The notes under the pieces are model-generated. The model was not told the DNA's origin and searched no databases. It saw only the letters and a program-made list of their open reading frames with translations. A stretch of 63,263 nucleotides of DNA from positions 1-63,263 of IMG/VR virus record IMGVR_UViG_3300035698_005593. One strand, written 5' to 3'. Both the position numbers and the translations under genes were made by a program. Source of the DNA: a virus. Shown one piece after another: positions 11,925 through 50,058 of the stretch (positions within the stretch are counted from its first letter, which is position 1; every line of letters starts with the position of its first letter).

Positions 11925-13101
11925 TCAAACCATGTTGGAGATTCAAAAGAAACACGGTAAAAAAGTTATAAAGATGGGCAGTGATATCTCATATCAAATC
12001 CCTATTCATTGTAGTACAGGTAGTATCAGTCTTGACCTAATTCTTGGTTGTGGTGGAATACCCAAGGGTCGTATTATTGAAACTTACGGCCCTGCGTCAG
12101 GTGGGAAAACAACTATGACAATTATTATGATGAAAGAGATACAGCAAATAGAGGTTAAAACTAAAGAAGGTAAACGTAAAGGAGTTGTAGCATTTATTGA
12201 TGTTGAGAACTCATTCGATAGAAAGTGGGCTGAAAAACAAGGTGTTAAGACAGAGGATATTTTGTATATTCAACCTGAAACTGGTGATGAAGTTCTTGAT
12301 ATTACAGAGACGCTTGTAAGATCAGGTGAAGTAGACCTTGTTATAATAGACTCAGTTTCAGCGATGGCTACACGAGCAGAACTTGAGGGGGAGTATGGTG
12401 ATGCACATATTGGTCAACTTGCAAGACTCATGTCACAGGGTATGAAAAAACTTAATGCGGCAATGACAGGCAATGATTGTACTATAGTGTTCATCAATCA
12501 GGTTCGGGATAAAATTGGTGGTTATGGAAGTCCTGAAACAACCAGTGGTGGTCGTGCACTAGGTTTTTATTCTTCAATTAGACTATCTGTTCGTAGAAGG
12601 GATGTCATTGGACTTAGAGAAGAACCTATTGGTTTCATTACAAAGGTAAAAGCTGAAAAGAATAAATGTGGTCCTCCTTTTAGACATGTTGAAGTATCAT
12701 TGTATATTGGAGGAGACGATGGTAAGACTTTTGGTATAGACAATGATGTAGAGATTATTGACTTAGCTGTATCTCAAGAGATTATCCACAAAGGTGGTGC
12801 TTGGTTTAAGTACGAGATCAACGGTGAAGAGGAAAGATGGCAAGGCAAAGCTAAGCTTGCAGCTTTTCTTAAAGAAAATCAAACTGTCTTTGAAGAGATA
12901 AAAGCAAAAGTGTATGCAAAGGTATTAGAAGACGACTCTCCAGCCTCTGGCTCGTTTGAAGAAGAAGTCAGGGAAGAGGAAGTTAAAGCCGAGATTGAAA
13001 AACTTGCAGCAGAACCGGAAGTTAAAAAATCAAAAGGTAAAAAAGAATCAGTAGAAGAACTGGTTACTGAGATGCCTGTTGCAGAAGAACAAGGTGAGTA
13101 A
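11914..13101 (+). CDS. recA: RecA-family recombinase
   Basis: 395 aa. Walker A GPASGGKTT at 59-67, then VVAFIDVENSFDRKWA, IIDSVSAM (Walker B), FINQVRDKIG and TSGGRALGFYSS are the ordered motifs of bacterial-type RecA rather than of T4 UvsX. The C-terminal 50 residues are a long Glu/Lys tail. It forms filaments on ssDNA for strand exchange during phage recombination-dependent replication. It lies in an operon after the SSB-like gene and just before the SbcC/gp46 gene, a classical recombination module. Confidence 0.95.
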   Translation: MSLDQTMLEIQKKHGKKVIKMGSDISYQIPIHCSTGSISLDLILGCGGIPKGRIIETYGPASGGKTTMTIIMMKEIQQIEVKTKEGKRKGVVAFIDVENSFDRKWAEKQGVKTEDILYIQPETGDEVLDITETLVRSGEVDLVIIDSVSAMATRAELEGEYGDAHIGQLARLMSQGMKKLNAAMTGNDCTIVFINQVRDKIGGYGSPETTSGGRALGFYSSIRLSVRRRDVIGLREEPIGFITKVKAEKNKCGPPFRHVEVSLYIGGDDGKTFGIDNDVEIIDLAVSQEIIHKGGAWFKYEINGEEERWQGKAKLAAFLKENQTVFEEIKAKVYAKVLEDDSPASGSFEEEVREEEVKAEIEKLAAEPEVKKSKGKKESVEELVTEMPVAEEQGE

Positions 13102-13102
13102 G

Positions 13103-13531
13103 ATGAAAGTAACGTATGAGATATTTGAGGATTTTTGTGAAGACGCATTTAAAGAAATTAAAGACCCAGAATCTTATACGGGAATCGTATGTCCGCTGAA
13201 AGGCGGATATATGTTTTCTTACTTTTTAAGTAATAGGTTGAACATTCCCATTCATTTTATTGAAATTGCGTCCTACGATAAGAAAGAGAGACACGAAGTA
13301 AAGTTTCTGACCAAGCTAAAAGCTGTATGTATGGATGGAAACTATTTATTTGTTGATGATATATATGATTCAGGTAGTACTTGGAAGGCTTTCGAGAACA
13401 AATACTACTGGTACAACTTGACCCCAATCTTTCTTGTCTCTAAATCATATGAAGTAGCTGCTGGGTTTTATGTTTCACCAGAGATATGGGTGGACTTTTT
13501 CTGGGAAGAAATTGGTTTAAGAAATGAATAA
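13103..13531 (+). CDS. Phosphoribosyltransferase-like protein
   Basis: 142 aa from ATG 13103 (AAGGTGAG upstream). An earlier in-frame ATG at 13079 lies inside recA and has no SD. NYLFVDDIYDSGST is the PRPP-binding motif of type I phosphoribosyltransferases, and IVCPLKGGYMF fits the preceding PPi loop. The likely reaction is base plus PRPP to a nucleotide, or a regulatory PRPP-binding role. The substrate-binding hood is too divergent to name the base. Its 3' end overlaps the promoter box at 13515. Confidence 0.8.
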   Translation: MKVTYEIFEDFCEDAFKEIKDPESYTGIVCPLKGGYMFSYFLSNRLNIPIHFIEIASYDKKERHEVKFLTKLKAVCMDGNYLFVDDIYDSGSTWKAFENKYYWYNLTPIFLVSKSYEVAAGFYVSPEIWVDFFWEEIGLRNE

Positions 13532-29636: not shown

Positions 29637-29642
29637 CTTCAT

Positions 29643-29715: not shown

Positions 29716-29743
29716 ATCTGTACAGATTAAAAGGAGGCATTGT

Positions 29744-29830: not shown

Positions 29831-29841
29831 TTTAACTACTT

Positions 29842-29915: not shown

Positions 29916-29918
29916 TTT

Positions 29919-29991: not shown

Positions 29992-30006
29992 CATTAACTG
30001 TTTTAC

Positions 30007-30079
30007 GCCACTATAGCTCACTTGGTAGAGCAAGAGTCTTGTAAACTCTAGGTACTCAGTTCGATTCTGAGTGGTGGCT
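30007..30079 (+). tRNA. tRNA-Thr (TGT)
   Basis: Acceptor GCCACTA / TGGTGGC, anticodon stem AGAGT/ACTCT, loop CTTGTAA. Confidence 0.93.
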
Positions 30080-30115
30080 CATAACTTAGCCCCTATATAG
30101 AAGATTAGTAGTTAA

Positions 30116-30189
30116 GGACCGGTGGCGCAGTCTGGTAGCGCAACAGCCTTTTAAGCTGTATGCCCTGGGTTCAAATCCCAGCCGGTTCA
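30116..30189 (+). tRNA. tRNA-Lys (TTT)
   Basis: Acceptor GGACCGG / CCGGTTC with A73, anticodon stem ACAGC/GCTGT, loop CTTTTAA. Confidence 0.93.
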
Positions 30190-30194
30190 CGTAT

Positions 30195-30268
30195 GGTAAT
30201 TATATCTCAGTTGGTTAGAGACCCGGACTGTGAATCCGGTTACATGGGTTCGAGCCCCATTAGTTACC
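30195..30268 (+). tRNA. tRNA-His (GTG)
   Basis: Genome-encoded G(-1) opposite C73, the His identity pair. Acceptor GTAATTA / TAGTTAC, anticodon loop CTGTGAA. A queuosine-type tRNA. Confidence 0.93.
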
Positions 30269-30334
30269 CATTCCTTGGAAGCCTCTTTTCATTCTGACGT
30301 AGAGTGGATAAGCTCAAATGTCCGAGGCGTTTAT
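30269..30334 (+). other. Unassigned spacer, possible structured RNA
   Basis: 66 bp between tRNA-His and the terminator with no ORF or tRNA T-loop. A GCCTC/GAGGC pairing (30281-30285 with 30324-30328) could fold it. Nothing firmer can be said. Confidence 0.25.
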
Positions 30335-30371
30335 GTGTAGAAGGACCTGCAGGTCCTCTTACACACTTTTT
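30335..30371 (+). terminator. Rho-independent terminator inside the tRNA cluster
   Basis: GTGTAGAAGGACC, loop TGCA, GGTCCTCTTACAC, then AC and TTTTT. The long stem has two adjacent non-Watson-Crick positions. It ends directly at the first base of the last tRNA, which must be made by read-through or a separate start. Confidence 0.75.
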
Positions 30372-30445
30372 GGCCATCTAAGCTAGTTGGTAAAGCTATG
30401 GGACTTAAAATCGCATGTTGCTGGGTTCAACTCCCAGGGTGGCTA
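30372..30445 (+). tRNA. tRNA-Leu-like (TAA) with short variable loop
   Basis: Acceptor GGCCATC / GGTGGCT with A73, D-arm AGCT...AGCT, anticodon loop CTTAAAA, T-loop TTCAACT. The anticodon arm is Leu-like, but the variable loop is only about five bases, whereas bacterial tRNA-Leu has a long arm. One G-G mismatch in the anticodon stem. Confidence 0.75.
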
Positions 30446-30470
30446 ATTTAAAATTATAAGGAGAATCAGA

Positions 30471-34837: not shown

Positions 34838-35123
34838 AACTGGTTTTGTATCAAACAGCAGTAGCAGTAGCTTTTGTATCTTAGGAGTAGAAGTAGACTA
34901 TGGCATAAACTACTATGGTATACTGGGTGACTCTAAGCTTACCCAAGAGTATGGTCTTGAAAACTACTATGATATGCAGTTTGTTGGAATCTATCCTGAA
35001 TCCATTCCTGAAGACATGACTATTGCAGAGGCAAAGGTTATGGTTAAAGAAGAGCTTGTAAAGGTGGGTATTAAAACCGATAAAACCCCCTCTTGGTATA
35101 CTGATGGAGGTCGTGACGGATGA
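34827..35123 (+). CDS. SNSSSSSF-family protein, paralogue 1
   Basis: 98 aa. The first 16 residues are MKIRTGFVSNSSSSSF, shared almost exactly by the next four genes; the remaining 82 residues are unrelated and acidic. AAAGGAG upstream. I know of this N-terminal motif from many uncharacterised phage and bacterial proteins, but no function is established. It could be a recognition leader or targeting peptide. It overlaps paralogue 2 by ATGA. Confidence 0.85.
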   Translation: MKIRTGFVSNSSSSSFCILGVEVDYGINYYGILGDSKLTQEYGLENYYDMQFVGIYPESIPEDMTIAEAKVMVKEELVKVGIKTDKTPSWYTDGGRDG

Positions 35124-35545
35124 AAATAAGAACTGGTTTTGTAAGCAACAGCAGCAGCAGTAGTTTTATTATTGCTACACCAAAGAGGGAGAAAGAGGTT
35201 ATTATTACTGTGAAGATGAATATCTCTTCTCTTATATCTAAAAGTGCTTCTACTCCTATGGAGTTAATGGAAGCTATTGATGAACAGTATTATCTCTTCG
35301 GTAGTTATGGGAAAGATAAAGAAGATTTCACAGCAGAGCAGTTTATGGAAGTACTTGTCAAAGAAGGTGACTGGGCTGTAAAAGAATTCAATGAGTGTCT
35401 GGCAATGATTGAAAAAGGTATGACTATTCATTTCGGAAGGGCTTCCAATGAAGGTGATGCCTCAGAAGACGGTTATGTGTATAATAATGGGTTGGATGAG
35501 AACGAGCTTTCAGATAGTTGTGTAGTAATCAGGGCAGGTGACTGA
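35120..35545 (+). CDS. SNSSSSSF-family protein, paralogue 2
   Basis: 141 aa. N-terminus MKIRTGFVSNSSSSSFIIAT, then an alpha/beta domain with a helical centre (ASTPMELMEAIDEQYY) and an acidic C-terminus. The Ser codons (AGC AGC AGC AGT AGT) differ from those of its neighbours while the peptide is kept. It shares one base with the start of paralogue 3. Confidence 0.85.
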   Translation: MKIRTGFVSNSSSSSFIIATPKREKEVIITVKMNISSLISKSASTPMELMEAIDEQYYLFGSYGKDKEDFTAEQFMEVLVKEGDWAVKEFNECLAMIEKGMTIHFGRASNEGDASEDGYVYNNGLDENELSDSCVVIRAGD

Positions 35546-35997
35546 TGAAGATTCGAAGAGGTTTTGTAAGCAATAGTAGTTCATCAAGTTTTATTATTGG
35601 CTATGGTGTTATTAAAGACAGAAACAAGTTTGATAAATACTGTAAGGAGAATAAAATTGAAGTGTCTACTGATGTTGATGGTTATGGTCAAGTAAAGGTA
35701 ACTAGGGCATGGGGTATAGGGAAGGAAAACAGAGTTTTGTCTATGACTAATGATACGGAACTAATTATCCCAAAGAAAATTACAGATCTTAGTCAAGATG
35801 TAGTTGTTGTTGAACTTGGTAATGATGAAGGTGATAGTGAGTTTTATATTCAAGATAATGAGTACGAACTCGAGTGGGATAAGGCAAAGAGTAAATCATA
35901 CTGGACCGGATATCAAAGAGCCATTATTGATTTGTTCGAGGAGAAGGGGATCATAAAAGATTCAGAGGTGATCTTCGGAGCGGAACGAAATGGCTAA
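35545..35997 (+). CDS. SNSSSSSF-family protein, paralogue 3
   Basis: 150 aa. N-terminus MKIRRGFVSNSSSSSFIIGY (Thr5 to Arg), then a beta-rich acidic domain. Ser codons AGT AGT TCA TCA AGT. It overlaps paralogue 4 by eight bases. Unknown. Confidence 0.85.
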   Translation: MKIRRGFVSNSSSSSFIIGYGVIKDRNKFDKYCKENKIEVSTDVDGYGQVKVTRAWGIGKENRVLSMTNDTELIIPKKITDLSQDVVVVELGNDEGDSEFYIQDNEYELEWDKAKSKSYWTGYQRAIIDLFEEKGIIKDSEVIFGAERNG

Positions 35998-36289
35998 AAT
36001 AAGAACAGGGTTTGTCAGTAATAGTTCAAGTAGCTCATTTATAGTACGTAGAAATGAATGTTCTAATGATTACTGGTACATTCTAACTATGTGGTCAATT
36101 ACAGAGTGGGTTAAGATACACGAGGATATTCTTAACGAAAGGGGAGTTGACTATAAGCTATATAACACTTGCCCATGGCAGATGGAGGGCGATTACTATT
36201 CTGATAGTGTAAAATTTTCAACAAGCATGGACAATTTTAAAATGACTAATATACTTGATTACTTAAAAATACCATATCACGCGGAGTAG
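35990..36289 (+). CDS. SNSSSSSF-family protein, paralogue 4
   Basis: 99 aa. N-terminus MAKIRTGFVSNSSSSSFIVR, with one inserted residue after Met. The body is Trp- and Tyr-rich and unrelated to the others. Ser codons AGT TCA AGT AGC TCA. Confidence 0.83.
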   Translation: MAKIRTGFVSNSSSSSFIVRRNECSNDYWYILTMWSITEWVKIHEDILNERGVDYKLYNTCPWQMEGDYYSDSVKFSTSMDNFKMTNILDYLKIPYHAE

Positions 36290-36293
36290 AGAA

Positions 36294-36665
36294 ATGAAAA
36301 TAAGAACAGGGTTTGTAAGTAACAGTAGTTCATCTTCCTTTGTGATTATTGGAAAAGATGTTAGTTTCAATAGAATAGATAAAGTAGAGGGTGATGTTTG
36401 GTTTCTTGGAAAATGGTTTTCAAATGGAAGGGATATTTTTAAGTTGACGAACGCCCATAAAGACATTATATTAGATAAGGGGGTAGATGGAGAGTTTGTT
36501 CATGCGTACCTCGTCTGTGATGAGTATGCAGAAATAGAAAAATTTCCTGATATACCGAAGGAAGAAAAAGTTATTATTAGAGTACTGGAAAGAGATCAAC
36601 ATTCATGTGTAGATGTTAAAGATTTTATTCGCCACTATGTTGAAGGTGGTTCAGATGAATATTAA
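36294..36665 (+). CDS. SNSSSSSF-family protein, paralogue 5
   Basis: 123 aa. N-terminus MKIRTGFVSNSSSSSFVIIG. The body is acidic, alpha/beta (VDGEFVHAYLVCDEY). Ser codons AGT AGT TCA TCT TCC. It is the last of the array, overlapping the next gene by 11 bases. Confidence 0.85.
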   Translation: MKIRTGFVSNSSSSSFVIIGKDVSFNRIDKVEGDVWFLGKWFSNGRDIFKLTNAHKDIILDKGVDGEFVHAYLVCDEYAEIEKFPDIPKEEKVIIRVLERDQHSCVDVKDFIRHYVEGGSDEY

Positions 36666-36900
36666 AGAATTAAAAGAGGCCATTGCTAACCTACCAGATG
36701 ACATGGAAGTAACTCTTCAAGACGACCCAGAAGGTAACGGGTATCGTTTTGCCAGAGGCGTTGAGGAAGTCGTTTATCAAGACATGGAGTATATAGATTG
36801 TGCTTACTCTCTTGACAACACGGCTGATGACAATTGTATGACTGAGGAAGAGTGGGAAGAGGTAAAAAGTTATCCTCATTCAATAGTAATTTACCCATAA
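36655..36900 (+). CDS. Hypothetical acidic protein
   Basis: 81 aa from ATG 36655 with GAAGGTGG upstream; an ATG at 36613 lies inside the upstream gene. IKELKEAIANLPDDMEV is an N-terminal motif common in small phage proteins of unknown role. Strongly acidic C-terminus. Confidence 0.65.
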   Translation: MNIKELKEAIANLPDDMEVTLQDDPEGNGYRFARGVEEVVYQDMEYIDCAYSLDNTADDNCMTEEEWEEVKSYPHSIVIYP

Positions 36901-36918
36901 TTAAACAAGGAGACATTT

Positions 36919-38007
36919 ATGAATCATGTAGAAGTTAAAGAGAATGATGTTTTTAAAACAGTAAGAAGCAAGTATTACAACTACAATTTCGATAAGGTGA
37001 CTGGAGTGTTTGCCAGATGGGGTGAGACAATTGAAGATGATCCACAAATCGCTCCTTACGGTCCAGAGATTCTTGATATCGAGATCAGTACCTCTATTCA
37101 TCCTGAAAAACAACTAACACTAGATAGAAATAGACTTTCTAATGTCGGTGGTTGTAAAGGCTCATGTGATTTTTGTTATAAGTCTAATAAGCATAACTTA
37201 CCTACTTATAACATGACTTTCGAAGAGTTCAAAACAATCTTTGATTTGATTCCAAAGACGCTGACTCAGATAGCGTTTGGTATCATGAACATAGATACTA
37301 ACCCAGACTTTTTTAAAATGATGGACTATGCAAAGGAAAATGGAGTTGTTCCTAACTTTACTTGTCATGGACTTGATGACATGACAGACGAACTTGCTAA
37401 ACGAATTAGCGAAACATGTGGTGCAGTTGCAGTCAGTGTTTACAATAAGGAAAAGTCATATGATACAATTAAAAAACTAACTGATGCTGGAATGACTCAA
37501 GTAAATATTCATTTTATGATTTGTGAAGAGACATTTAAAAAAGCAGCTGAGGTTATGGATGATATCGTAACTGATCCAAGACTTAGAAAACTTAATGCAA
37601 TGGTACTATTAAGTCTTAAACAAAAAGGTGGAGGTGAAGGATACACTCCACTTAGTTTTGAAAAGTTCTGCACACTAATTAGGCATGCTGAAGTAATTGG
37701 TATTAGATACGGAATGGATAGTTGTACTGCAACTAAATACACAAAGTATCTTAAAGAAGTTAAGAAAGACGAATCAATGCTTCAGTATGTTGAACCATGT
37801 GAGTCTTCGTTAATGAGTTCTTACATTAATGCACAAGGAGATTATTACGCCTGTTCATTTGCAGAGGGTGAAGGCATGTGGAAAAATGGTCTTAGTGTAC
37901 TAGAGTGTTCGAACTTTCTTGAAGACATATGGTTCAACGATATTAACCAATTATTTAGAACAAACTTACTTCACAATAACAGAGCTTGTCCACTATTTAA
38001 AATATAG
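36919..38007 (+). CDS. Radical SAM enzyme with SPASM-like C-terminal cysteines
   Basis: 362 aa. Cys79, Cys83 and Cys86 in GGCKGSCDFCYK bind the radical SAM 4Fe-4S cluster. Downstream the body continues the partial TIM barrel. The last 100 residues contain spaced cysteines (PCESS, YACSF, LECSN, NRACPLF) like those of SPASM/twitch domains, which hold auxiliary clusters in peptide-modifying enzymes. The substrate is unknown. It lies 254 bp after the SNSSSSSF array, so one of those proteins is a conceivable substrate (inference). AAGGAG upstream. Confidence 0.85.
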   Translation: MNHVEVKENDVFKTVRSKYYNYNFDKVTGVFARWGETIEDDPQIAPYGPEILDIEISTSIHPEKQLTLDRNRLSNVGGCKGSCDFCYKSNKHNLPTYNMTFEEFKTIFDLIPKTLTQIAFGIMNIDTNPDFFKMMDYAKENGVVPNFTCHGLDDMTDELAKRISETCGAVAVSVYNKEKSYDTIKKLTDAGMTQVNIHFMICEETFKKAAEVMDDIVTDPRLRKLNAMVLLSLKQKGGGEGYTPLSFEKFCTLIRHAEVIGIRYGMDSCTATKYTKYLKEVKKDESMLQYVEPCESSLMSSYINAQGDYYACSFAEGEGMWKNGLSVLECSNFLEDIWFNDINQLFRTNLLHNNRACPLFKI

Positions 38008-39657: not shown

Positions 39658-42294
39658 ATGAGTGGTTTCCTACAGAAAAAAGTAGTATCTACAAAGTGCA
39701 GTAACTGTGCATTAAAGAAAAAGAAACTTATAGAAACAGAAAATGTTGACACACTACTATATCAGTCAGGGAGGCCTGATGTTTTGGTTGTGTGTGAAAT
39801 GCCTGAGCCAGAAGTCTATATAGGAGAATTTGTCAAGTTTCTTACTCAAAAAGGTATTGAAAACTTCGTCATTAAATCTGCTCTTGGGTGTAAGGCTCTA
39901 GACTTTGAACTACCAAAACCTAACTATAAACTTTTTAAAAATTGCAATTGCATACATGAAACTAAGACCCCATACAAAGCAATCATTACAGTAGGGAGAT
40001 CAATTAGTGCAGTTACTAAAACCAATGATCAAAATTCTTGGCAAGAGTTTACAGAGATAAATTTTAATCCTACTTACTTCTATACAGGAGTTGACTGGGA
40101 TAGAAAAATAAGAGTGTATCCTATTTCAGGATTCACAGGTTGGCTGTTCAAAGATAACTTTGATAAATACCATGCAGTTAAACAGATTGGATTTCTAAAG
40201 AAACACTTGGAAGAGTTTAAAGAAAGTGACACTCAAATTGACAAACCAATAGTCGTAGTAGTAGAAGATACATCTGCTTTCTTTAACGATCACATTGACG
40301 AACCAGAGTTAGCAATTGATACAGAGACCACTGGATTTGATATGTTTGCAAACGACTTTGAATGTAGATGTGTCACTATTTCTTTTGATGGCATTACAGG
40401 CTACTATCTTAAATTTGATGACATCAACAAGAGATTGTTCAGTAGATTTCTTAAAGGTAAAAAACAGTACTATGCCAATGGAAAGTTTGACTGTAAAGTG
40501 TTGCAACAAAGTGGAGTAAGAAATGCTCTTGTAGATGAAGACATAATTATTTTGTTTCATGTTCTTTCAACAGTTAGAATGCAAAATGGTTTGAAGATAC
40601 TTGCTTGGTTTACTGGTCTCGGTGGGTATGACGAAGAATTAGGTGAGTATTGGGAAAAGAATACTGGTATTACTTGGAAGAACGTCCCTCATAAAGCTTT
40701 ATACAACTATGCAACACTTGACGCTATCGTAACATATAGGGTTACGAAATTAGGGCTTAACCTTGCTAAGTTGCAACCCGCAGTATATAGAGATTATAAA
40801 GACCTTGTCATACCTGTCATACCTGTCTTTCAAGCTATGGAAACGAACGGGTTAGAGGTTGATTTAGACTACACCAACAACCTACACGTTACTCTTTCTA
40901 AAGAAAAAGCTGAGTTAGAAAAGAAAATTAAGGAACAGATCAAGATAGATAAGATTACTTCTCCTGAACAACTTGGTAAGGCACTTGAACTTGCTGGTTG
41001 GCCTTCACATGGAACAGGGGTTAAAAAATGGACAGACGAAGAGGGTGTAGAGCATGGTTTTTATAAAGTAGGAGAGCCTCAGTTATCTAGATGGTTGAAG
41101 CAAGGGTATACACTAGCACAAGACATACTAGATTTTAGAGGAGTTGATATTCTTGATAAAACCTTTGTTGGTAGTAGAGAGGACGAGGGTGAGCATAGCA
41201 ACACCTTCTTTGATAGAAGTATCACCGCAGTAAAAGAAAAGCTCAGAGGTTTAATGCAGTATATAGCTGATGATGGGAAGGTACATGGTACTCTAAATCC
41301 AGCACGTACTGATACCTGGAGAACGTCAAGTGCTGGCCCTAATCTTCAAAACTTTCCTAAGCAAGGAGTCAGTGGAAAGAGGTTTCGACCTTGCTTTGCT
41401 TGTCCAGAGGGTTACTTAATTGGAGAAGCTGACTATAGTGGGTTTCAGTTAAGAATAGGTGGCATTTACTCTGGTGATGAAGTTATGAAGGACTTGTTTA
41501 TTAACAAGGGTGGAGACATGCACTCTATTACAGCACAGTCTGTATTTAAGAGAAGCGTTTCTGTTGAGGACTTTATAGCACAAAAGGATAAAGAGCCGTA
41601 CAAAGGTCTAAGATTTAAAGCAAAGGAAGTAAACTTTGGATTCCTATTTGGAATGGTAGCACCTACTTTCAAAGGGGTGTTGGAAAAAAGTTGGGCAGAT
41701 AGTGATATAGATAATTATATAGAAGAAAACGATCTGAGTATTAAGCAGAATAAAGAAGGGTACGCTGATGCATATCTTACAGTAGCAGAGGACATGAGAA
41801 ATAAGTTCTTCGATACATACAGAGCTCTGTTACCTTGGATAGCCGGGCAACACGATTATGCTAAACAACACGGGTATATAGATAGCATTCATGGAGTAAG
41901 GAGACACTTACCAGAACTTCTGTATGGAGGTAGGGATGTTAATTTTAAAATTATAGCTAACTTACTTAATATATCTGTTAATGCACCGGTTCAGGGCTTC
42001 GAAGCAATTGAGTTGTATAAGGCACTTGTAAAAATATATGAGCTGTTTATAGAAAGGAGACTGAAGTCAAAACTGGTTGCTACTGTTCATGATTCAATTG
42101 TTTCGTATATACATGTAGATGAGATTAAGGAAGTAGCACTCATATTCTATGACTGTATGACAAGCCATGAGTTTGATATACCAATTACAATGGAACTTGA
42201 GATTGGGCGTGTCTGGGGCTTTGGTACGGAACTTGACTACAAAAATATTGATGAGTCTATTGAAAAAATTAAAGAAAAATATTTAAGTAATTAA
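39658..42294 (+). CDS. polA: Family A DNA polymerase with N-terminal UDG-like domain
   Basis: 878 aa. Residues 1-190 contain Cys14, Cys17 and a later Cys pair (GCKAL, then NCNC), plus a Rossmann-like VLVVCEMP and IITVGRS, resembling family-4/5 uracil-DNA glycosylase fold domains fused to SPO1-type phage polymerases. The 3'-5' exonuclease begins with IDTETTG near 220. Polymerase motifs: ADYSGFQLRIGG near 591 (A), RFKAKEVNFGFLFGM (B) and VHDSIV near 811 (C). Motif C has Ser where E. coli Pol I has Glu. This is the replicative polymerase of the phage. Confidence 0.93.
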   Translation: MSGFLQKKVVSTKCSNCALKKKKLIETENVDTLLYQSGRPDVLVVCEMPEPEVYIGEFVKFLTQKGIENFVIKSALGCKALDFELPKPNYKLFKNCNCIHETKTPYKAIITVGRSISAVTKTNDQNSWQEFTEINFNPTYFYTGVDWDRKIRVYPISGFTGWLFKDNFDKYHAVKQIGFLKKHLEEFKESDTQIDKPIVVVVEDTSAFFNDHIDEPELAIDTETTGFDMFANDFECRCVTISFDGITGYYLKFDDINKRLFSRFLKGKKQYYANGKFDCKVLQQSGVRNALVDEDIIILFHVLSTVRMQNGLKILAWFTGLGGYDEELGEYWEKNTGITWKNVPHKALYNYATLDAIVTYRVTKLGLNLAKLQPAVYRDYKDLVIPVIPVFQAMETNGLEVDLDYTNNLHVTLSKEKAELEKKIKEQIKIDKITSPEQLGKALELAGWPSHGTGVKKWTDEEGVEHGFYKVGEPQLSRWLKQGYTLAQDILDFRGVDILDKTFVGSREDEGEHSNTFFDRSITAVKEKLRGLMQYIADDGKVHGTLNPARTDTWRTSSAGPNLQNFPKQGVSGKRFRPCFACPEGYLIGEADYSGFQLRIGGIYSGDEVMKDLFINKGGDMHSITAQSVFKRSVSVEDFIAQKDKEPYKGLRFKAKEVNFGFLFGMVAPTFKGVLEKSWADSDIDNYIEENDLSIKQNKEGYADAYLTVAEDMRNKFFDTYRALLPWIAGQHDYAKQHGYIDSIHGVRRHLPELLYGGRDVNFKIIANLLNISVNAPVQGFEAIELYKALVKIYELFIERRLKSKLVATVHDSIVSYIHVDEIKEVALIFYDCMTSHEFDIPITMELEIGRVWGFGTELDYKNIDESIEKIKEKYLSN

Positions 42295-42314
42295 AAAAAG
42301 TTTTATAGTATAAT
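42281..42314 (+). promoter_or_regulatory. Phage promoter element
   Basis: ATTTAAGT, 12 bases, TTTTATAGTATAAT. It begins in the last codons of the polymerase gene, 13 bp upstream of queD. Confidence 0.75.
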
Positions 42315-42327
42315 AAAGATAAGGAGT

Positions 42328-42801
42328 ATGTTTATGATAATAAAGAAGAAGTTCACCTCGGAGACGAGTCATATAGTGAGGAACGCTATATCAACCCGAT
42401 GCAAATTCAACATTCACGGACACTCGTATAAGTGGTATGTTTATATTAAAGGGGATGTGGGCGAAGAAACAGGAATGGTTTTAGATTTTAAAGAGCTCAA
42501 ACCAGTTAAAGAGTTTATTGACTTATTTGATCACTCAACTATCTTATGGAGAGAAGAGTCAGAGGAGTTTCGCAATTTCTTTCTTACAGAGTGTAAAAGG
42601 GTGCTTATAATGAGAAAAAACACTACTGCAGAAAACATGGCGAGAGTAGTTTTAAAGTTTACACAAGACTGGCTCGATTCGATCGGCAGTAAATGTAAGG
42701 CCCATCAAGTCGATGTATGGGAAACTGAAACTGGGTGTGCAATTGCAAACTGTTTTGATGAGAGTGACAATCTTATTCATCAACATAAGAATGACGACTG
42801 A
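42328..42801 (+). CDS. queD: 6-carboxytetrahydropterin synthase
   Basis: 157 aa (an ATG at 42334 is an alternative start). Cys25, His30 and His32 in RCKFNIHGHSYK, MVLDFKELK, NTTAENMARV and the VWETETGCA end match QueD, with zinc-binding His15/30/32. It converts dihydroneopterin triphosphate to 6-carboxytetrahydropterin, step two of the 7-deazaguanine pathway. It is followed by queE and folE. Confidence 0.9.
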   Translation: MFMIIKKKFTSETSHIVRNAISTRCKFNIHGHSYKWYVYIKGDVGEETGMVLDFKELKPVKEFIDLFDHSTILWREESEEFRNFFLTECKRVLIMRKNTTAENMARVVLKFTQDWLDSIGSKCKAHQVDVWETETGCAIANCFDESDNLIHQHKNDD

Positions 42802-42811
42802 AGGAGACATT

Positions 42812-43543
42812 ATGATAACTCTAACTGAAAAACCACATATCGTTATACAAGGAGAAGGACCTAATGTAAACAAGAAAATGATTGTTCTACGCTTCTCTGG
42901 ATGTGACGTCAAGTGTCCTAGTTGCGATTCTAAGCACACATGGCAAAAGGATAGTGACGGAGTAATTCCGGGTTTTAAGTACAGCGTTTCAGAGCTCAAA
43001 AGAGAAGTAACCGGCATGATAGAGAAACACCAGATAGACTGTATCATGCTTACAGGCGGAGAACCAATGCTCCAGAAAGTTGACATTGTAGATTTTATGG
43101 AGGCTATGAAAGCAAAACCTTTGGGCATTAAAAGACCTTTAATGTATGAGATTGAAACAGCGGGACATCACTCGTGGCGACCATGGTTTAGAAAACATGT
43201 AGTTGACATGCACATTAACTTTTCACCAAAGATTGGTTCTTTAACACCTAGTGCTAAGGATCTTGATTACATAGGTATTGCTGAAGCAGTCACTTCATAT
43301 ATACCAAGGTACTCAGTTAAAATTGTTATTGACCCCAGTGATGAAAGTGTTATAGAAACAATTAAGAACTTTAGAATTGACTATAACATACCTAGATATA
43401 ACATTTACCTTATGCCACTAGGAGCTACAAGGGAAGAGATAATTAAAAACTCAGTACTTGTTGAAGAACTAGCGATCAAATACAATTATCAATTTACAAG
43501 TAGGCAACACATTTTAATTCATGATAATAAAAAATTAGTTTAA
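42812..43543 (+). CDS. queE: 7-carboxy-7-deazaguanine synthase
   Basis: 243 aa from ATG 42812 (AAGGAG upstream); longer in-frame readings overlap queD and lack a ribosome binding site. IQGEGPNVNK, the radical SAM cluster GCDVKCPSC (Cys31, Cys35, Cys38), and LTGGEPM are QueE features. It makes 7-carboxy-7-deazaguanine (CDG) from the QueD product. Confidence 0.92.
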   Translation: MITLTEKPHIVIQGEGPNVNKKMIVLRFSGCDVKCPSCDSKHTWQKDSDGVIPGFKYSVSELKREVTGMIEKHQIDCIMLTGGEPMLQKVDIVDFMEAMKAKPLGIKRPLMYEIETAGHHSWRPWFRKHVVDMHINFSPKIGSLTPSAKDLDYIGIAEAVTSYIPRYSVKIVIDPSDESVIETIKNFRIDYNIPRYNIYLMPLGATREEIIKNSVLVEELAIKYNYQFTSRQHILIHDNKKLV

Positions 43544-43571
43544 GTAACTAAAAATACTTTTATAGTATATT
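43538..43571 (+). promoter_or_regulatory. Phage promoter element
   Basis: GTTTAAGT, 12 bases, TTTTATAGTATATT, starting at the queE stop and 15 bp upstream of folE. Confidence 0.75.
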
Positions 43572-43586
43572 AAAAGAGGAGACAAG

Positions 43587-44204
43587 ATGGATAAGATACT
43601 TAGTAACGGAAACAAGATACTAACTGATTCAGAACGAAGAAGAATGCTAAAAAAAGCAGAGACTGCTTACAAGAAGTTCCTTGAAACACTCGACTTTGAC
43701 ATTGATAATGATCAACAGCTTTTTGGTACTCCAGAAAGAGTAGCAAGAATGTATGTTAATGAGCTGTTTGCTGGTTGTTATACTGAAGAACCAAAGATGA
43801 CTGTTTTTGATAATACAGAAGAGTACGATGAAATGGTGGTGCTGGGTCCTATCAGTATCAAGTCAACATGTAGTCATCATATTATTCCTTTTATTGGAGA
43901 AGCATACATTGCTTACATACCAGATAAGAAGGTAGTTGGTATTTCTAAACTTGCTCGTATAACTAAATGGTTTATGAGGAGACCACAGATACAAGAGGAA
44001 CTTACTAAGCAGATTTCAAACTATGTTCAAGAGCACCTGAATCCCTTAGGTGTTGGTGTCTATATTAAAGCACAACACCTTTGTATGATAGCAAGAGGGG
44101 TGGAAGAGTATAATTCAAGTATGGTAACTTCGTCGTTGAGAGGGGTGTTTAAGGAATCAGAGGCAACACGAAAAGAGTTTTTTGATATTATTAAAGGAGA
44201 CTAA
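43587..44204 (+). CDS. folE: GTP cyclohydrolase I
   Basis: 205 aa. FGTPERVARMY, STCSHHIIPF (zinc ligands Cys95, His98; catalytic His97) and QHLCM (Cys166) are the active-site blocks of FolE. It converts GTP to dihydroneopterin triphosphate, the first step toward CDG. With queD and queE the phage has the complete route from GTP to CDG. Confidence 0.93.
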   Translation: MDKILSNGNKILTDSERRRMLKKAETAYKKFLETLDFDIDNDQQLFGTPERVARMYVNELFAGCYTEEPKMTVFDNTEEYDEMVVLGPISIKSTCSHHIIPFIGEAYIAYIPDKKVVGISKLARITKWFMRRPQIQEELTKQISNYVQEHLNPLGVGVYIKAQHLCMIARGVEEYNSSMVTSSLRGVFKESEATRKEFFDIIKGD

Positions 44205-44205
44205 A

Positions 44206-44541
44206 TTGAATAAAAGATATATTTGGGTCACTTCCTCATTTATTGGATTTCATCTTTACCCTGAGGCACCAGATGAAGTAAAGTTTCTTAGGAACGAACA
44301 CCGACATAAGTTTGGAGTAAAAGTGACTATAGAAGTTTTTGACAATAATAGGGACATAGAATTTTTCATGTTCCAGAGTTTTATAAACTCATTGCTTGAT
44401 AAAAACGACTTAGACTTTATGTCATGTGAGATGATTGCAGAGTCTTTGTATGTTAGGATAACTGAGAAATACTCAGATAGATCAATCATTATAGAAGTGG
44501 ACGAAGACAAAGAGAATGGCTGTAGACTAGAGTGGATATAG
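44206..44541 (+). CDS. Possible T-fold (QueD-like) small protein
   Basis: 111 aa from TTG 44206, nine bases after GGAGA. FIGFHLYPEAPDEVKFL, NEHRHKFGVKVTIEV and SCEMIAESLY match a phage family that resembles the pterin-binding T-fold in its His-rich strand and AE helix. It may be a pathway accessory or a diverged QueD relative. Resemblance by eye only. Confidence 0.6.
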   Translation: MNKRYIWVTSSFIGFHLYPEAPDEVKFLRNEHRHKFGVKVTIEVFDNNRDIEFFMFQSFINSLLDKNDLDFMSCEMIAESLYVRITEKYSDRSIIIEVDEDKENGCRLEWI

Positions 44542-44551
44542 AGGAGATAAC

Positions 44552-45484
44552 ATGGGTAAAGATGTTTTAATATGTGGCATGGGTATTGGAAATGTTTATA
44601 AGGGTCAGTGCGAGAGACTCGGGTTTTCTTACGACACACTTGACAACAACCCAAGTCTCGATACCACATTTAATGATATTGAAGAGGTGACTGAACAGTA
44701 CAGACTAGCTATTATTTGTGTGCCTAACTATCTACATAAACCTTTTGCTCTTAAGCTAATAGATCATGCTAAAGTAGTTATGGTAGAGAAACCTGGATTT
44801 AGAACTCAGGTAGAATGGAGTTTACTTAGAGAGTTATATGTAGAGCAAGATAAACTTTTAACAATGGTAAAGAACAATATTTATAGACATCGTAATAACT
44901 ACCTTCGACACCTTTTAGAAAGCGATCATTATCATGTTACTGAGGTGAATCTAACTTGGTTTAATGACAACAGGGTTCCACACCCGGGCAGTTGGTTTAC
45001 CAATAAGGAGTTAGCATACGGAGGTGTGTCAAGAGATTTAATGCCTCACTTATTAAATTTTCTTTACTCTATTTATCAAACAGATTTTAATGTTAAGTTT
45101 AAGTCAGTAGAAAAACATCAACATCACTCTCTAACTGATTTTAAAGATAGAACTTCTAATTATGGCAAGGTAAATCTTGATGGAGTGTATAATGTAGACG
45201 ATGAAGCAAAGTGTGTCTTTGAACACCAGATGGGTTACCCTATTTCATTATGTGCTAATTGGGATGCAGGAGTAGATGTACAGGTTATAGAAGTATTCTT
45301 TGATGACGATACCAGTTTTGCTTACTCTTTTGGTCTTTGTCCTGATGACGTATATGGTACAATGATCACCAACTATCTAATGAACTCTGATAAGTGTGAT
45401 TTTAATCTACGTCATAACGATGCGTTGATAGACGACTTTACACTCACAATTCTAGATAAGTTCGAGGATGTTTGTGATGAGTAA
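44552..45484 (+). CDS. Gfo/Idh/MocA-type oxidoreductase
   Basis: 310 aa. VLICGMGIGNVYKG is a dinucleotide-binding GxGxxG-like start. AIICVPNYLHKPFALKLI followed by VMVEKP is the hallmark EKP motif. These NAD(P)-dependent enzymes oxidise or reduce sugars. Its place between folE and a glycosyltransferase suggests it makes the sugar donor or alters a sugar on the modified base (inference). Confidence 0.8.
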   Translation: MGKDVLICGMGIGNVYKGQCERLGFSYDTLDNNPSLDTTFNDIEEVTEQYRLAIICVPNYLHKPFALKLIDHAKVVMVEKPGFRTQVEWSLLRELYVEQDKLLTMVKNNIYRHRNNYLRHLLESDHYHVTEVNLTWFNDNRVPHPGSWFTNKELAYGGVSRDLMPHLLNFLYSIYQTDFNVKFKSVEKHQHHSLTDFKDRTSNYGKVNLDGVYNVDDEAKCVFEHQMGYPISLCANWDAGVDVQVIEVFFDDDTSFAYSFGLCPDDVYGTMITNYLMNSDKCDFNLRHNDALIDDFTLTILDKFEDVCDE

Positions 45485-46871
45485 TAAGAATATAGCTATT
45501 CTAATAAACTCTAGGTTTATTAGCAAAAGTGGGATAGGACTTTTTGTTAAATCTGTTGTTGATATTTTTAGTGACAAAGGTTGGAATATCACTTTTGTCA
45601 CTAACTCACCTGTGACACCAGAGAAATTTGAGGAGCTTGAAATAAACCCATTAGAAATTGAGGTATTCTATACTAGCACTGGAATATCTGTAACAAATCA
45701 TAGTTATATAAATCAGTTCAAAGAGGCAGTACAGTACGAAACAGTGCTTAACTATAGAGACTCTTTTCTCAAAGCAATGAAGTTTAATATATTTGATTTT
45801 GTTCTTTGTAATGACGTTGAGTCTCTACTTGCTGTGCAGAACACAGGTCTACAGGAATTTTTTCCTGTTATGTACTACACCCATTGTCACAGTATAATAC
45901 CTTATACAGACGTTGACAACTCTAAATTTGACGTATTCTCTAGACAGTTCATCGACTTCCTCTTGAGTGCAGTTAAGATGAAGAATGTTTTAGTTGGCAC
46001 GCAGAGTCAGTACAACAAAGAGCTATTGGGTAACACTGATAATATAAAAGTACTACCCATAGTATCTGACTTCTTTTTAAATCAGAAAGAGAAAATAGTG
46101 CATGACCCTACGGTTGAGAAGGATGGTTTACTTTTTATAGGCAGATACGAGCCAAGAAAAAATGTTATATTCTTGCATAAGACGATGAAGTTGTTAAAGG
46201 AAGCAGGCAACGAGATTAAGATTAAAGTAATAGCACCGAAGTCTCACAAAGCAAAGTTTGAAAAAGATTTTGCTAAAATTGATTACACTAATTATGAGAT
46301 CTTCACTGGGGTTAGTGAAGCAGATAAACTTGAGATAGTGAAATCATCGAAACTCTTCTTCTTCCCCTCCTTGCTAGAAGCATATGGTATAGTTATTAAA
46401 GAGACTCTTCCTTTTATGCCCACACTTGCAATAGAAAAATATAACTGGTGTAAAATGTGGGGAGAACACATAGAGGTTGCTACTGAAGATAATATTGTTG
46501 ACGTAATAAGAGAAATCTATGACAGAGATGAGGATCCTAATGAACGTATCAAAAAGTACTTAGAATTTGAACAAGGTGATTACGATATATGGACAAATTT
46601 TATAGACTATGTAGAGAACTTCCAAGACGATGGACACGTTATTTCAAAAAAGAACAAAAATTTGCTTAAGTATTTGGAAAGTGCTTTATATATAAAGTTG
46701 AGTAGCTTCTATACCAGGTTAGACAGGAAACCTTATATATCTGATTATGTAGCAATTCATAAATACAGAGATTGTTTCGACTACTATTATAAGACTACTA
46801 AAAACCCTCTCTTAGGAACTAAGAAAAGAGAGTTAATGATTAAGTTAAAAGAGGAGAGAGTACATGAGTAA
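45477..46871 (+). CDS. GT-B glycosyltransferase (GT4-like)
   Basis: 464 aa from ATG 45477 (GAGG ten bases upstream; ATG 45468 is an alternative). NSRFISKSGIGLFVKSV, then LLFIGRYEPRKN at the second Rossmann domain, and SLLEAYGIVIKE (the EX7E motif) define a GT4-like retaining enzyme. The extra C-terminal 90 residues are helical. It probably transfers a sugar within the 7-deazaguanine cluster. Confidence 0.85.
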   Translation: MSNKNIAILINSRFISKSGIGLFVKSVVDIFSDKGWNITFVTNSPVTPEKFEELEINPLEIEVFYTSTGISVTNHSYINQFKEAVQYETVLNYRDSFLKAMKFNIFDFVLCNDVESLLAVQNTGLQEFFPVMYYTHCHSIIPYTDVDNSKFDVFSRQFIDFLLSAVKMKNVLVGTQSQYNKELLGNTDNIKVLPIVSDFFLNQKEKIVHDPTVEKDGLLFIGRYEPRKNVIFLHKTMKLLKEAGNEIKIKVIAPKSHKAKFEKDFAKIDYTNYEIFTGVSEADKLEIVKSSKLFFFPSLLEAYGIVIKETLPFMPTLAIEKYNWCKMWGEHIEVATEDNIVDVIREIYDRDEDPNERIKKYLEFEQGDYDIWTNFIDYVENFQDDGHVISKKNKNLLKYLESALYIKLSSFYTRLDRKPYISDYVAIHKYRDCFDYYYKTTKNPLLGTKKRELMIKLKEERVHE

Positions 46872-47775
46872 TAAGCTATTACATACAACAGGTAAAAGTG
46901 ATATCAAAATACTAGAGTGGGAAAAACCAGATATCACAGATACTCAGATAGAGATAAAAACAGTATTCTGTGGTATTTGTAGATCAGATATTGCTGCATA
47001 CAAGGGTTGGGAAGATTTTATGCCCTTTGGAATGCAGGGCCACGAAGGACTTGGTGTAGTTACAAAAATTGGAAATAGCATACAAGACGTTAAGGTTGGT
47101 GATTTTGTAGCTACTATTTCAGACCCTGCTTATTGCGAAACATATAATGCAGAGGAGTATCAGTATATTAAAGTTCCTGAACTTGACCCTAAGTATATTA
47201 TTCAACCCACAGCTTGTGCAATGAACATTATTTATAAGACACTAGCTAATTCAAAACAAGGGGACAACATACTCCTCATAGGTACTGGTTTTATGTCAGT
47301 AATCATAGGACAGTATCTACAATCAAAGGGTGTAAGCATTGACGTATACGGGTCTTCACATAAAGATATATGGGACAATCTAGGACATAACTTAATGCAG
47401 AGAGAACAGTTGGGTAGGTATGATATTGTTATTGACTTATCTTCTAAAGAAGAGAACTTCTATCTAGCTCCTGATATTCTAAATGACGAAGGTTTGCTAT
47501 GCTATGCAGCAACCCCTTTTACAGAGGTAAAGACAAACTTTTTCGATCTTTGCTGGAAGTGTGTTACTATTATAATGCCAAGCCCTAGGAATTCAGACTT
47601 TAAAAAGGTAATGAAACAGACTGTAGAACTTATAGACTCTGGTGATATTGATCCCTCGATACTATGGACAAAGGGGTATGATGCGTTCACTGAGTACGTT
47701 GAGGCTTTTGAAGAGGGTGTAAATAGAACTAAAAATTACATCAGGGGATACTTTTTTTACGATAAAAATCTTTAA
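46864..47775 (+). CDS. Medium-chain zinc dehydrogenase (MDR family)
   Basis: 303 aa. FCGICRSD (Cys36), GHEGLG (His60-Glu61) supply the catalytic zinc, and ILLIGTGFMSVIIG is the NAD(P) fold. The four-Cys structural zinc lobe is missing, and the protein is about 40 residues shorter than typical MDR enzymes. It may oxidise a sugar alcohol or nucleotide-sugar. It overlaps the glycosyltransferase by eight bases. Confidence 0.82.
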   Translation: MSNKLLHTTGKSDIKILEWEKPDITDTQIEIKTVFCGICRSDIAAYKGWEDFMPFGMQGHEGLGVVTKIGNSIQDVKVGDFVATISDPAYCETYNAEEYQYIKVPELDPKYIIQPTACAMNIIYKTLANSKQGDNILLIGTGFMSVIIGQYLQSKGVSIDVYGSSHKDIWDNLGHNLMQREQLGRYDIVIDLSSKEENFYLAPDILNDEGLLCYAATPFTEVKTNFFDLCWKCVTIIMPSPRNSDFKKVMKQTVELIDSGDIDPSILWTKGYDAFTEYVEAFEEGVNRTKNYIRGYFFYDKNL

Positions 47776-47803
47776 GAAAATGAAAGATATCTTATAGCAT
47801 GTA
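47770..47803 (+). promoter_or_regulatory. Phage promoter element (divergent)
   Basis: CTTTAAGA, 12 bases, TCTTATAGCATGTA; the downstream half is the weakest of the set. It lies 16 bp before the second glycosyltransferase. Confidence 0.5.
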
Positions 47804-47819
47804 TATAAGGAGATACATA

Positions 47820-48863
47820 ATGCACAACTTAATTTTAGTATCACTCGAAAGGCTAGACACAAGATATACTGGTCAATGGTCAGAATGGATTCCAAGAGCA
47901 TTTGAAGAGTCCATTACAATAGTGGACATACCTGGAACAACTCTTTCTACTTCAACAGACAACAAGAGTTTTCTTAACTGGTCTCATACAAATATATGGA
48001 AGAGCGAGCAGATAATACAAATTGCTAAAATGTTTGAAGACGGAAGTATCAAACCGGGTGACAAGTTTTTACACTATGACGCATGGAACTATGCTGTTGT
48101 AGCAATTAAGTACATGTCCACCCTACTAGATATTCCTGTTAAACAGTACGGCCTCTGGCACGCTGGTTCATATGACGAAGCTGATTTGCTTGGTAGTTCA
48201 GGGCTTCACCCTTTCTTTAAAGGTTTTGAAGAAAGCTGTTTTAACTGTTTAGACAAATCGTTTGTTGCAACAGAGTATCATAAGAAACTTATACTTAAAA
48301 AGTTTCCAACTATTGATGGTAGCAAGATAATCGTAACTGGCTTTCCTTACTCTTTTAGTCACTTAGACGATTATAAGAAAGTTGCAAAAGAGAATGTAAT
48401 TGTTTTTCCACATAGACTGTCTGATGAGAAGCAACCTAACATTTTAAAGGACTTAGTGCCTGATTTACACGAAGCCGGATATACTTGTATATTCTGTCAG
48501 GAAGCTAAGTTGAGTAAGCATCAATATCAGACCATACTTAGTATAAGTAAGATGGTGTTTTCAGCGAGTTTACAGGAGACATGGGGAATAGGCACGTTCG
48601 AAGGCATGTATGTAAATGCAATACCCTATTTACCAACAAGGCTTAGCTACGAAGAAATGTATGGGTCAGCTTACTTATATCCTAGTATGTGGACAGAGTC
48701 ATTCGAGAGCTTTAAGGTGTATAGAAAACTCTTACTCGACGACATGTTATTTAAGTTAAAAAACTATGATGAAATTGCATCAAAGATACATGTTGGAATG
48801 AAAGTGGTGAAAGATAATTTTTGTGATATTACAAACATTGTAGAGGAGACTTTGAATGATTAA
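47820..48863 (+). CDS. Second GT-B glycosyltransferase, QTMAN/DUF3524-like end
   Basis: 347 aa from ATG 47820 (AAGGAG upstream). SLQETWGIGTFEGMY contains the EX7E motif and is followed by LPTRLSYEEMY. That layout resembles GT4 enzymes of the DUF3524 group, which includes the tRNA-queuosine mannosyltransferase. IVTGFPYS and VIVFPHRLSDEKQP form the second Rossmann start. It overlaps the transglycosylase gene by eight bases, so the two are probably coupled. A role in glycosylating a 7-deazaguanine is plausible but inferred. Confidence 0.8.
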   Translation: MHNLILVSLERLDTRYTGQWSEWIPRAFEESITIVDIPGTTLSTSTDNKSFLNWSHTNIWKSEQIIQIAKMFEDGSIKPGDKFLHYDAWNYAVVAIKYMSTLLDIPVKQYGLWHAGSYDEADLLGSSGLHPFFKGFEESCFNCLDKSFVATEYHKKLILKKFPTIDGSKIIVTGFPYSFSHLDDYKKVAKENVIVFPHRLSDEKQPNILKDLVPDLHEAGYTCIFCQEAKLSKHQYQTILSISKMVFSASLQETWGIGTFEGMYVNAIPYLPTRLSYEEMYGSAYLYPSMWTESFESFKVYRKLLLDDMLFKLKNYDEIASKIHVGMKVVKDNFCDITNIVEETLND

Positions 48864-50058
48864 CAATAAAACATTTTATTTTCCAGCTATCTCTGCTGGG
48901 ACGCAAGCAACCGCTTTGGACAAGGATGCAAAACACCCGATAACAGGTAAAGACTACAGGTTCTACGGCGACAACCCAGTATTTAAGTATAATGGTTTTC
49001 TTATTAGTGCTGGTCATCAGTATAAAAAAGACACAAGCACTCTATGGGAATATCCACTAGATAAAAACCTTATACTTGGAGACTCTGGTGGCTACCAAAT
49101 TGCGACAGGCGTCCTAGATTTTACACCAGAGATTGTGAGTATAATTTTTAACTGGCTCGAGAAGCATTCTAACTATGCACTAAATCTTGATTTACCTCCT
49201 TACGTATCAGGAAACAGTAAATCTTCTGGGCAGTTTAATGAGCGACTAGAGACTTCTCTAGAAAATTTTAAGTACTTTCAAGAACATCAATCGGGTAGTA
49301 CTAAGTATCTTAACGTATTACATGGAAGAAAGATAGACGAGCTTAGAGCTTGGTACGACGCAGTTAAGGATTTTAAGTTTGACGGAGGTTGGGCAGTAGG
49401 CTCTGCTTCTTCAAACTTTTTTTATATTCTTCAATCTTTCTTTCTCCTATTTGAGAAAGGAGAGCTAGAAAAGTGTAGTGGTAAAAAACAGTTGGTTCAT
49501 ATTCTTGGGTTTTCAAAGTCTAATCAAATTTATATTCTAATCTATCTACAACAGAAGCTTAATCAACTGGGTATAGATATTACTATTACCTATGACAGCT
49601 CGTCTCCATTCTTACAGGCAGCATTTGGAGGCTATAGTTTGTTTACAAAGAAAGAGGGAATATTCTACTTAAATATTTCTAACTCCATAGTTAAAGACAA
49701 TGCTAAGATAGAACTAAGCTCTCAACTACCGTGTACTTGTCCAGTGTGTAAAGGTGTTACATGGAATGATATGTTTGCAATGTCTACTGATACAGGGTTT
49801 AAGTCAGAGTACTACTACCTAGTGATGTGGCACAACTTGTATAGATTTCTAGATTACAAAGATAGTATGGAGAGTATTATCTCCACTCAATCTGATCTAA
49901 TTTTTGAAAGCATATTTAATAAAGACGAGCTCGGTATTTTAAAGTTGATTGACAGGTGTTTCGAAGCTGAGAGTCCAACTATTCTTTTACAGAAGCACCG
50001 CTATCTACTTGGAGCACTTTTAAAGGATTCTACAGTTAGTAAGAAAACACTATTTTAA
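48856..50058 (+). CDS. Tgt/DpdA-like 7-deazaguanine transglycosylase
   Basis: 400 aa. AISAGTQATA (11-20), GDSGGYQ (75-81, with Asp76), NVLHG (153-157), an ITYDSSSP segment (Asp247 as possible nucleophile), and the zinc site CxCxxC (Cys293, 295, 298) with His326 follow the tRNA-guanine transglycosylase scheme. Phage relatives (DpdA) insert 7-deazaguanines into DNA. The gene ends the modification cluster. Whether DNA or tRNA is the target cannot be fixed by sequence; DNA is favoured by phage context. Confidence 0.85.
   Translation: MINNKTFYFPAISAGTQATALDKDAKHPITGKDYRFYGDNPVFKYNGFLISAGHQYKKDTSTLWEYPLDKNLILGDSGGYQIATGVLDFTPEIVSIIFNWLEKHSNYALNLDLPPYVSGNSKSSGQFNERLETSLENFKYFQEHQSGSTKYLNVLHGRKIDELRAWYDAVKDFKFDGGWAVGSASSNFFYILQSFFLLFEKGELEKCSGKKQLVHILGFSKSNQIYILIYLQQKLNQLGIDITITYDSSSPFLQAAFGGYSLFTKKEGIFYLNISNSIVKDNAKIELSSQLPCTCPVCKGVTWNDMFAMSTDTGFKSEYYYLVMWHNLYRFLDYKDSMESIISTQSDLIFESIFNKDELGILKLIDRCFEAESPTILLQKHRYLLGALLKDSTVSKKTLF

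Follow-up and report, generated by a model that had tools for sequence, protein, structure and literature searches.

Phage DNA modification by 7-deazaguanines involves the base-exchange enzyme DpdA; Hutinet et al. (2019; PMC6884629) showed routes in which preQ0, preQ1, or G+ is reached by way of QueC or Gat-QueC. Besides the DpdA principle, it is already known that 7-carboxy-7-deazaguanine (CDG) and the deoxynucleoside of 7-deazaguanine (dDG) occur in DNA and that phage T4 carries sugar on cytosine. Cui and co-workers reportedly described, in 2023, phages with the deoxynucleoside of CDG (dCDG) and phages with dDG, that is plain 7-deazaguanine in DNA, in connection with DpdA3 and a CDG decarboxylase named DpdL. 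A literature search, which was incomplete and leaves a prior mention possible, yielded no description of DNA containing a sugar-bearing deazaguanine. Here we analyze a densely packed cluster of nine genes located on the + strand (positions 42334-50058) of the IMG/VR virus record IMGVR_UViG_3300035698_005593, a fragment of 63,263 bases that is referred to, at its full length, as the window. The cluster comprises, in this order, queD, queE, folE, a gene designated t, a Gfo/Idh/MocA oxidoreductase gene (MocA), the glycosyltransferase gene GT1, a medium-chain dehydrogenase/reductase gene (MDR), the glycosyltransferase gene GT2, and a gene related to DpdA and to tRNA-guanine transglycosylase (TGT). 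With a probability of about 0.6, this cluster is a phage DNA-hypermodification module yielding a predicted glycosylated 7-deazaguanine.

GT2 was detected in 19 of 50,697 phage records, and the 15 records with a match at E<1e-20 all fall within the 27 records that carry t. Judged against the record counts in this phage collection, the clustering is far beyond chance. Neighborhoods were then compared in both directions. Among 89 sources fetched with GT2, many of which are contigs ending within the neighborhood, t was present within about 9 kb in 81, a DpdA-like gene in 81 (79 plus 2 of the ACP17 type), FolE in 66, and QueE in 60. Conversely, GT2 was present in 62 of 79 loci fetched with DpdA, and the 79 loci fetched with MDR contained MocA (75), DpdA (75), t (74), and GT2 (68). 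Merging of overlapping contigs left 122 GT2 loci, with DpdA in 118, t in 104, FolE in 87, and QueE in 74. These reciprocal neighborhoods uphold the earlier assignment of the glycosyltransferases and of both oxidoreductases to the DpdA/7-deazaguanine genes and strongly support the existence of one module. Relatives were obtained by alignment-based scans; scans of viral contigs with single proteins (DpdA, GT2, and DNA polymerase) returned none.

The neighborhoods also bear on a different partition of the cluster, in which the DpdA part yields plain CDG or 7-deazaguanine and the glycosyltransferases and dehydrogenases perform an unrelated task, for example on a host surface polysaccharide. Relatives of GT2 are nearly confined to the vicinity of DpdA or t, the loci fetched with MDR show the same surroundings, and only three bacterial contigs carry GT2, two of them also beside DpdA. 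This partition is therefore very unlikely, although the glycosyltransferase fold is common to many carbohydrate enzymes and sugar-nucleotide genes, such as that for UDP-glucose dehydrogenase, are located near some loci.

Gene order varied between carriers. With the letters D for queD, E for queE, F for folE, M for MocA, 1 for GT1, R for MDR, G for GT2, A for DpdA, p for a phosphoribosyltransferase gene, and x for the gene of a 176-residue protein, the window reads D E F t M 1 R G A, PA5oct reads A G t p E with M R x at a distance of 22 kb, ACP17 reads D F x A G t E, and a T4-like group reads A M R x t G ... F E. MocA and MDR were found together in 46 of 48 loci of the deduplicated GT2 set. The pair was present in 41 of the 109 tips of the GT2 tree, with at least 4 state changes forced by well-supported branches and 21 by parsimony, indicating that M-R is gained or lost as one unit. 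Since gene order is reshuffled and the state of M-R changes on the GT2 tree, inheritance of a single block does not explain the link.

Two further genes were observed around the module in other carriers. In T4-like carriers, protein x, which contains an NPGVWT motif (L076:7238-7762 and about 70 further loci), is nearly always encoded next to t/GT2; in PA5oct (L260:5855-6361), its gene comes after M-R, and the window lacks it. Some phages of the T4-like group have a UDP-glucose/GDP-mannose dehydrogenase gene close to the module (L060:1208-2059 and 25 other loci), which hints that the sugar donor in these phages is a uronic acid.

The preliminary description had reported no QueC in the cluster, and this absence extends to the route as a whole. 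A profile search of the window record gave no QueC. The record is a fragment, and the QueC-free route is therefore better supported by the complete genomes of relatives, which agree with it. No QueC match was obtained in the complete genomes of PA5oct, Phosso, ACP17, and BUCT-ZZ01; in X1, the sole match (16 bits) was below threshold and located inside the NAD synthase. Full-length QueC was likewise not found in 25 IMG/VR records of the module, with sizes up to 353 kb, three of which contained matches limited to 57 to 91 positions of the profile, nor was QueC found in Cellulophaga phage phiST, which carries t but no GT2. In contrast, QueC was present in all five DpdA phages without t that were checked (Motura, GR7B, Peetri, 2.275.O, and Xhv-12). 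Among 138 deduplicated DpdA loci, t was present in none of the 4 loci with QueC versus 104 of the 134 without it. In cultured phages, t and QueC are almost completely mutually exclusive.

Two loci (L099:8370-10215 and L131:818-3779) lack t and GT2 and carry a DpdA gene belonging to the same subfamily close to a QueC-like gene, an arrangement that is a possible natural swap of the QueC and t branches. Xanthomonas phage PhiXhv-12 harbors a separate cluster (PV764601.1, 118196-124996; L006, 1904-8704) encoding Gat-QueC, a PIG-L deacetylase, a Gfo/Idh/MocA oxidoreductase, and a glycosyltransferase distantly resembling GT2, perhaps an amino-sugar version acting on archaeosine-type bases.

Protein t, translated from a TTG codon 7 nucleotides downstream from AGGAG, was modeled as a T-fold by AlphaFold2 (predicted local distance difference test [pLDDT] score of 90), with E. 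coli QueD as the top match in the PDB (template modeling score of 0.74). The zinc-site residues H24, H40, and H42, as well as S81-C82-E83 and E108-D109, are conserved in at least 99% of 156 homologues (residue numbering starting from position 44182). In the profile alignment of these 156 proteins to QueD, the catalytic Cys preceding the HxH motif and the Asp-His dyad of QueD are missing, and a new S-C-E motif is invariant instead. Replacement of QueD by t was considered and ruled out: t lacks these catalytic residues, and a true QueD is encoded alongside t, together with FolE, in PA5oct, Phosso, ACP17, X1, and BUCT-ZZ01, the checked complete genomes with GT2. In phiST, the neighbors of t encode a kinase, MazG, FolE, QueD, QueE, and a short TGT-like protein, the last of which is a relative of the protein annotated as DpdA in Flavobacterium phage immuto. 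Given this neighborhood, t may be DpdL. Protein t would mark a QueC-free route in which the inserted base is predicted to be either CDG or its decarboxylation product, 7-deazaguanine.

The first of these bases leads to a distinct proposal, in which CDG itself is inserted, GT2 places the sugar on the carboxylate, as a glycosyl ester, or on an alcohol derived from the carboxyl group, and t acts elsewhere, for example in delivering CDG to DpdA. The lack of QueC would leave CDG available, carboxyl handles are known on cytosine in phage DNA (PMC12783734), and roughly one lineage in three encodes the MocA/MDR oxidoreductases. However, GT2 was found in 102 of the 104 t-bearing DpdA loci, and this near-constant pairing suggests that t performs an essential chemical step. 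In addition, M and R are missing from most GT2 loci and cannot, for this reason, make a universal acceptor. We consider insertion of CDG itself rather doubtful.

In the DpdA-like protein, D76, S77, G78, G79, Q81, D112, H215, and D247, which include both catalytic Asp residues and the DSGG motif, are invariant in 15 relatives. The copy in the window retains the CxCxxC..H zinc motif. The match to PF01702 is weak and was obtained for 4 of the 15 family members. Family membership and genomic context suggest that this putative enzyme exchanges guanine in phage DNA. In relatives, its gene is located near those encoding DNA polymerase, the clamp, and other replication proteins, the polymerase family being represented within about 9 kb in 98 of the 122 GT2 loci.

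This location also bears on the nature of the substrate, which could instead be phage or host tRNA carrying a glycosylated, queuosine-like wobble base. Enzymes of the TGT superfamily act mostly on tRNA, and sugar-bearing queuosine exists in animals. The window contains 11 tRNA genes (29122-30446), among them the complete set of four with GUN anticodons (Tyr, Asp, Asn, and His), and GUN-anticodon tRNAs are the usual carriers of queuosine. Nonetheless, the proximity to replication genes, the failure to recognize QueF, QueA, or QueG/H in the window cluster, and the lack of a PUA-domain match in the DpdA-like protein of the window make tRNA a highly improbable target.

The AlphaFold2 model of GT2 displayed a confident GT-B fold (pLDDT of 91.5), in which the glutamates of the EX7E motif (E253 and E261) and the donor-site residues R199 and K204 are invariant. 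The preliminary description likened GT2 to the group comprising the queuosine mannosyltransferase QTMAN. This resemblance was not supported: no match was obtained to the QTMAN/DUF3524 Pfam family (21 GT2 family members, E<=1), and the closest solved folds were those of BshA, MshA, and sucrose-phosphate synthase (SPS), with Z of about 25. QTMAN was not among the matches listed in the fold search, a listing that does not exclude it. GT2 relatives were found at no fewer than 581 places in IMG/VR, and a search of 84,980 species genomes returned 3 matches only, two of them beside a DpdA gene, indicating that GT2 is phage-specific. A capsule or lipopolysaccharide role of the glycosyltransferases, which the preliminary description had kept in view, was rejected in view of the neighborhoods fetched with GT2, DpdA, and MDR. 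For GT1, all three IMG/VR relatives, as well as those of cyanophage BUCT-ZZ01 and locus L174, are located in deazaguanine clusters. GT1 is thus not an unrelated insertion and is probably an optional second glycosyltransferase of the module.

The oxidoreductases retain the features of their families. MocA harbors intact EKPG and GGVSxDLxxH motifs, and its closest solved relative is DgpA (E=2e-11), an enzyme that oxidizes the sugar of glycosides. In MDR, residues C39, H60, and E61 are invariant.

Together, these observations are consistent with the following pathway for a glycosylated 7-deazaguanine in DNA. FolE, QueD, and QueE, whose family chemistry is established, would convert GTP into CDG. 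Protein t, acting instead of QueC, would convert CDG, most simply by decarboxylation into 7-deazaguanine. The DpdA-like enzyme would exchange guanine in phage DNA for the deazaguanine base, and the phosphoribosyltransferase may salvage the guanine thus freed. GT2 would glycosylate the inserted base with a nucleotide sugar as the donor, much as in the glucosylation of hydroxymethylcytosine in T4, and GT1 may attach a second sugar in the lineage of the window. The MocA/MDR pair would oxidize or reduce the sugar, its precursor, or the donor. The resulting bulky base would shield the DNA against host nucleases.

Several points weigh against this pathway. The modified base is predicted from gene content. 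Many loci originate from related phages, so that the counts overstate independence and do not amount to independent trials. Divergence is marked among the DpdA-like proteins, some of which lack the zinc cysteines, and a tRNA substrate retains a small probability. The pathway is weakest in its linkage chemistry, since CDG offers only a carboxylate and 7-deazaguanine likewise has no hydroxyl group: an O-glycoside would require an unseen step, and an ester or a C-glycoside made by a retaining GT4-type enzyme would be unusual. In its most specific form, the pathway would involve decarboxylation of CDG by t, installation by DpdA, joining of the sugar by GT2 to the free C7 (or formation of a glycosyl ester on CDG), and tailoring by MocA/MDR, the product being a DNA base whose sugar is C-glycosidic or acyl-linked, the first of its kind; this full combination is unlikely.

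The eight genes named in the preliminary description (queD, queE, folE, MocA, the two glycosyltransferase genes, MDR, and the TGT/DpdA-like gene) were all recovered as intact open reading frames on the + strand (Table 1). The run from folE to MocA, which had been taken to be unbroken, is interrupted by the overlooked ninth gene, t. The queD product retains the catalytic Cys, HGH, and Asp-His residues, C23, H28, G29, D66, and H67 being invariant (alignment A10). The phosphoribosyltransferase gene of the window is distant from the cluster; homologues are located close to the cluster in 56 of the 122 GT2 loci and also in PA5oct and BUCT-ZZ01, where the annotation is xanthine-guanine phosphoribosyltransferase.

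Table 1. Genes of the cluster and accessory gene in the window.
Feature	Position	Strand	Basis
queD, 6-carboxytetrahydropterin synthase	42334..42801	+	PF01242 E=7e-23; TIGR03367 E=4e-18
queE, CDG synthase, radical SAM	42812..43543	+	phrog_2076 E=3e-35; TIGR03365 E=3e-16; CxxxCxxC present
folE, GTP cyclohydrolase I	43587..44204	+	PF01227 E=3e-60; TIGR00063 above cut-off
t, QueD-fold paralogue, proposed CDG-converting enzyme	44206..44541	+	phrog_17812; AlphaFold2 model; conservation profile
Gfo/Idh/MocA oxidoreductase (M)	44552..45484	+	PF01408, PF22725 above cut-off
GT1, GT4-type glycosyltransferase	45477..46871	+	PF00534 E=2e-10
MDR oxidoreductase (R), zinc alcohol-dehydrogenase type	46864..47775	+	PF08240 E=5e-11
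GT2, GT-B retaining-type glycosyltransferase	47820..48863	+	AlphaFold2 model; EX7E; PF00534 E=0.008
DpdA/TGT-like putative base-exchange enzyme	48856..50058	+	invariant motifs; PF01702 E=0.005 (window copy alone), sub-threshold
Phosphoribosyltransferase, accessory in related clusters	13079..13531	+	PF00156 E=9e-10; phrog_8995

Elsewhere in the window, four tandem open reading frames sharing the N-terminal motif KIRxGFVSNSSSSSF are followed by a radical-SAM protein (phrog_7293; 35120-38007), which might be a leader-type or peptide-modification arrangement. NrdG-like and NrdD-like open reading frames recognized by eye (24624-27389) suggest that the virus encodes an anaerobic ribonucleotide reductase and that its host is an anaerobe.

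The module is also present in cultured phages. PA5oct and its kin (Paride, Callisto, and MIJ3) harbor A-G-t-phosphoribosyltransferase-QueE at 223-228 kb and M-R-x at 251-253 kb, with FolE and QueD at 168.6-169.7 kb in PA5oct; the published descriptions of Paride and Callisto make no mention of deazaguanine. ACP17, X1, and Phosso each encode GT2, t, FolE, QueE, and a TGT-like protein. Synechococcus phage BUCT-ZZ01 encodes, in a single run, QueE, a guanine-type phosphoribosyltransferase, QueD, FolE, a GT1 relative, DpdA, t, and a GT2 relative, a gene set that is close to that of the window. If the pathway is correct, the 7-deazaguanine bases of phage DNA would extend to sugar-bearing ones, and the lack of QueC in many phages that have FolE, QueD, QueE, and a DpdA-like gene would be explained. 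The module is common, as judged from the number of GT2 relatives in IMG/VR, and its presence in jumbo phages of phage-therapy research (PA5oct, Paride, and Callisto) implies that nuclease resistance, sequencing bias, and defense evasion may depend on it in these phages. Candidate functions are also provided for hypothetical families, namely phrog_17812, the glycosyltransferase, the MocA/MDR pair, and protein x.

The module can be compared with several known systems. As with QTMAN and QTGAL, a sugar is predicted to be carried by a 7-deazaguanine derivative in nucleic acid, but the acceptor of these enzymes is the cyclopentenediol of queuosine, whereas late queuosine genes were not recognized in the window cluster. 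As with the alpha- and beta-glucosyltransferases of T4, which act on 5-hydroxymethylcytosine, a glycosyltransferase is proposed to act on a modified base of phage DNA. In contrast to the T4 system, the base would be a deazaguanine, the fold of the enzyme is nearest to GT4 members, and no hydroxyl acceptor is evident. The module shares a QueC-free deazaguanine route with the dCDG and dDG phages, t being encoded near folE and the short TGT-like gene in phiST, but no GT2, MocA, or MDR match was obtained in that phage. Finally, FolE, QueD, QueE, and a DpdA-like protein of the TGT superfamily, predicted to exchange bases in DNA, are encoded together, as in the previously described DpdA phages (Hutinet et al., 2019; PMC6884629). 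The module of the window differs from these phages by the lack of QueC, the presence of t in its place, and the addition of GT2, GT1, and the MocA/MDR pair.

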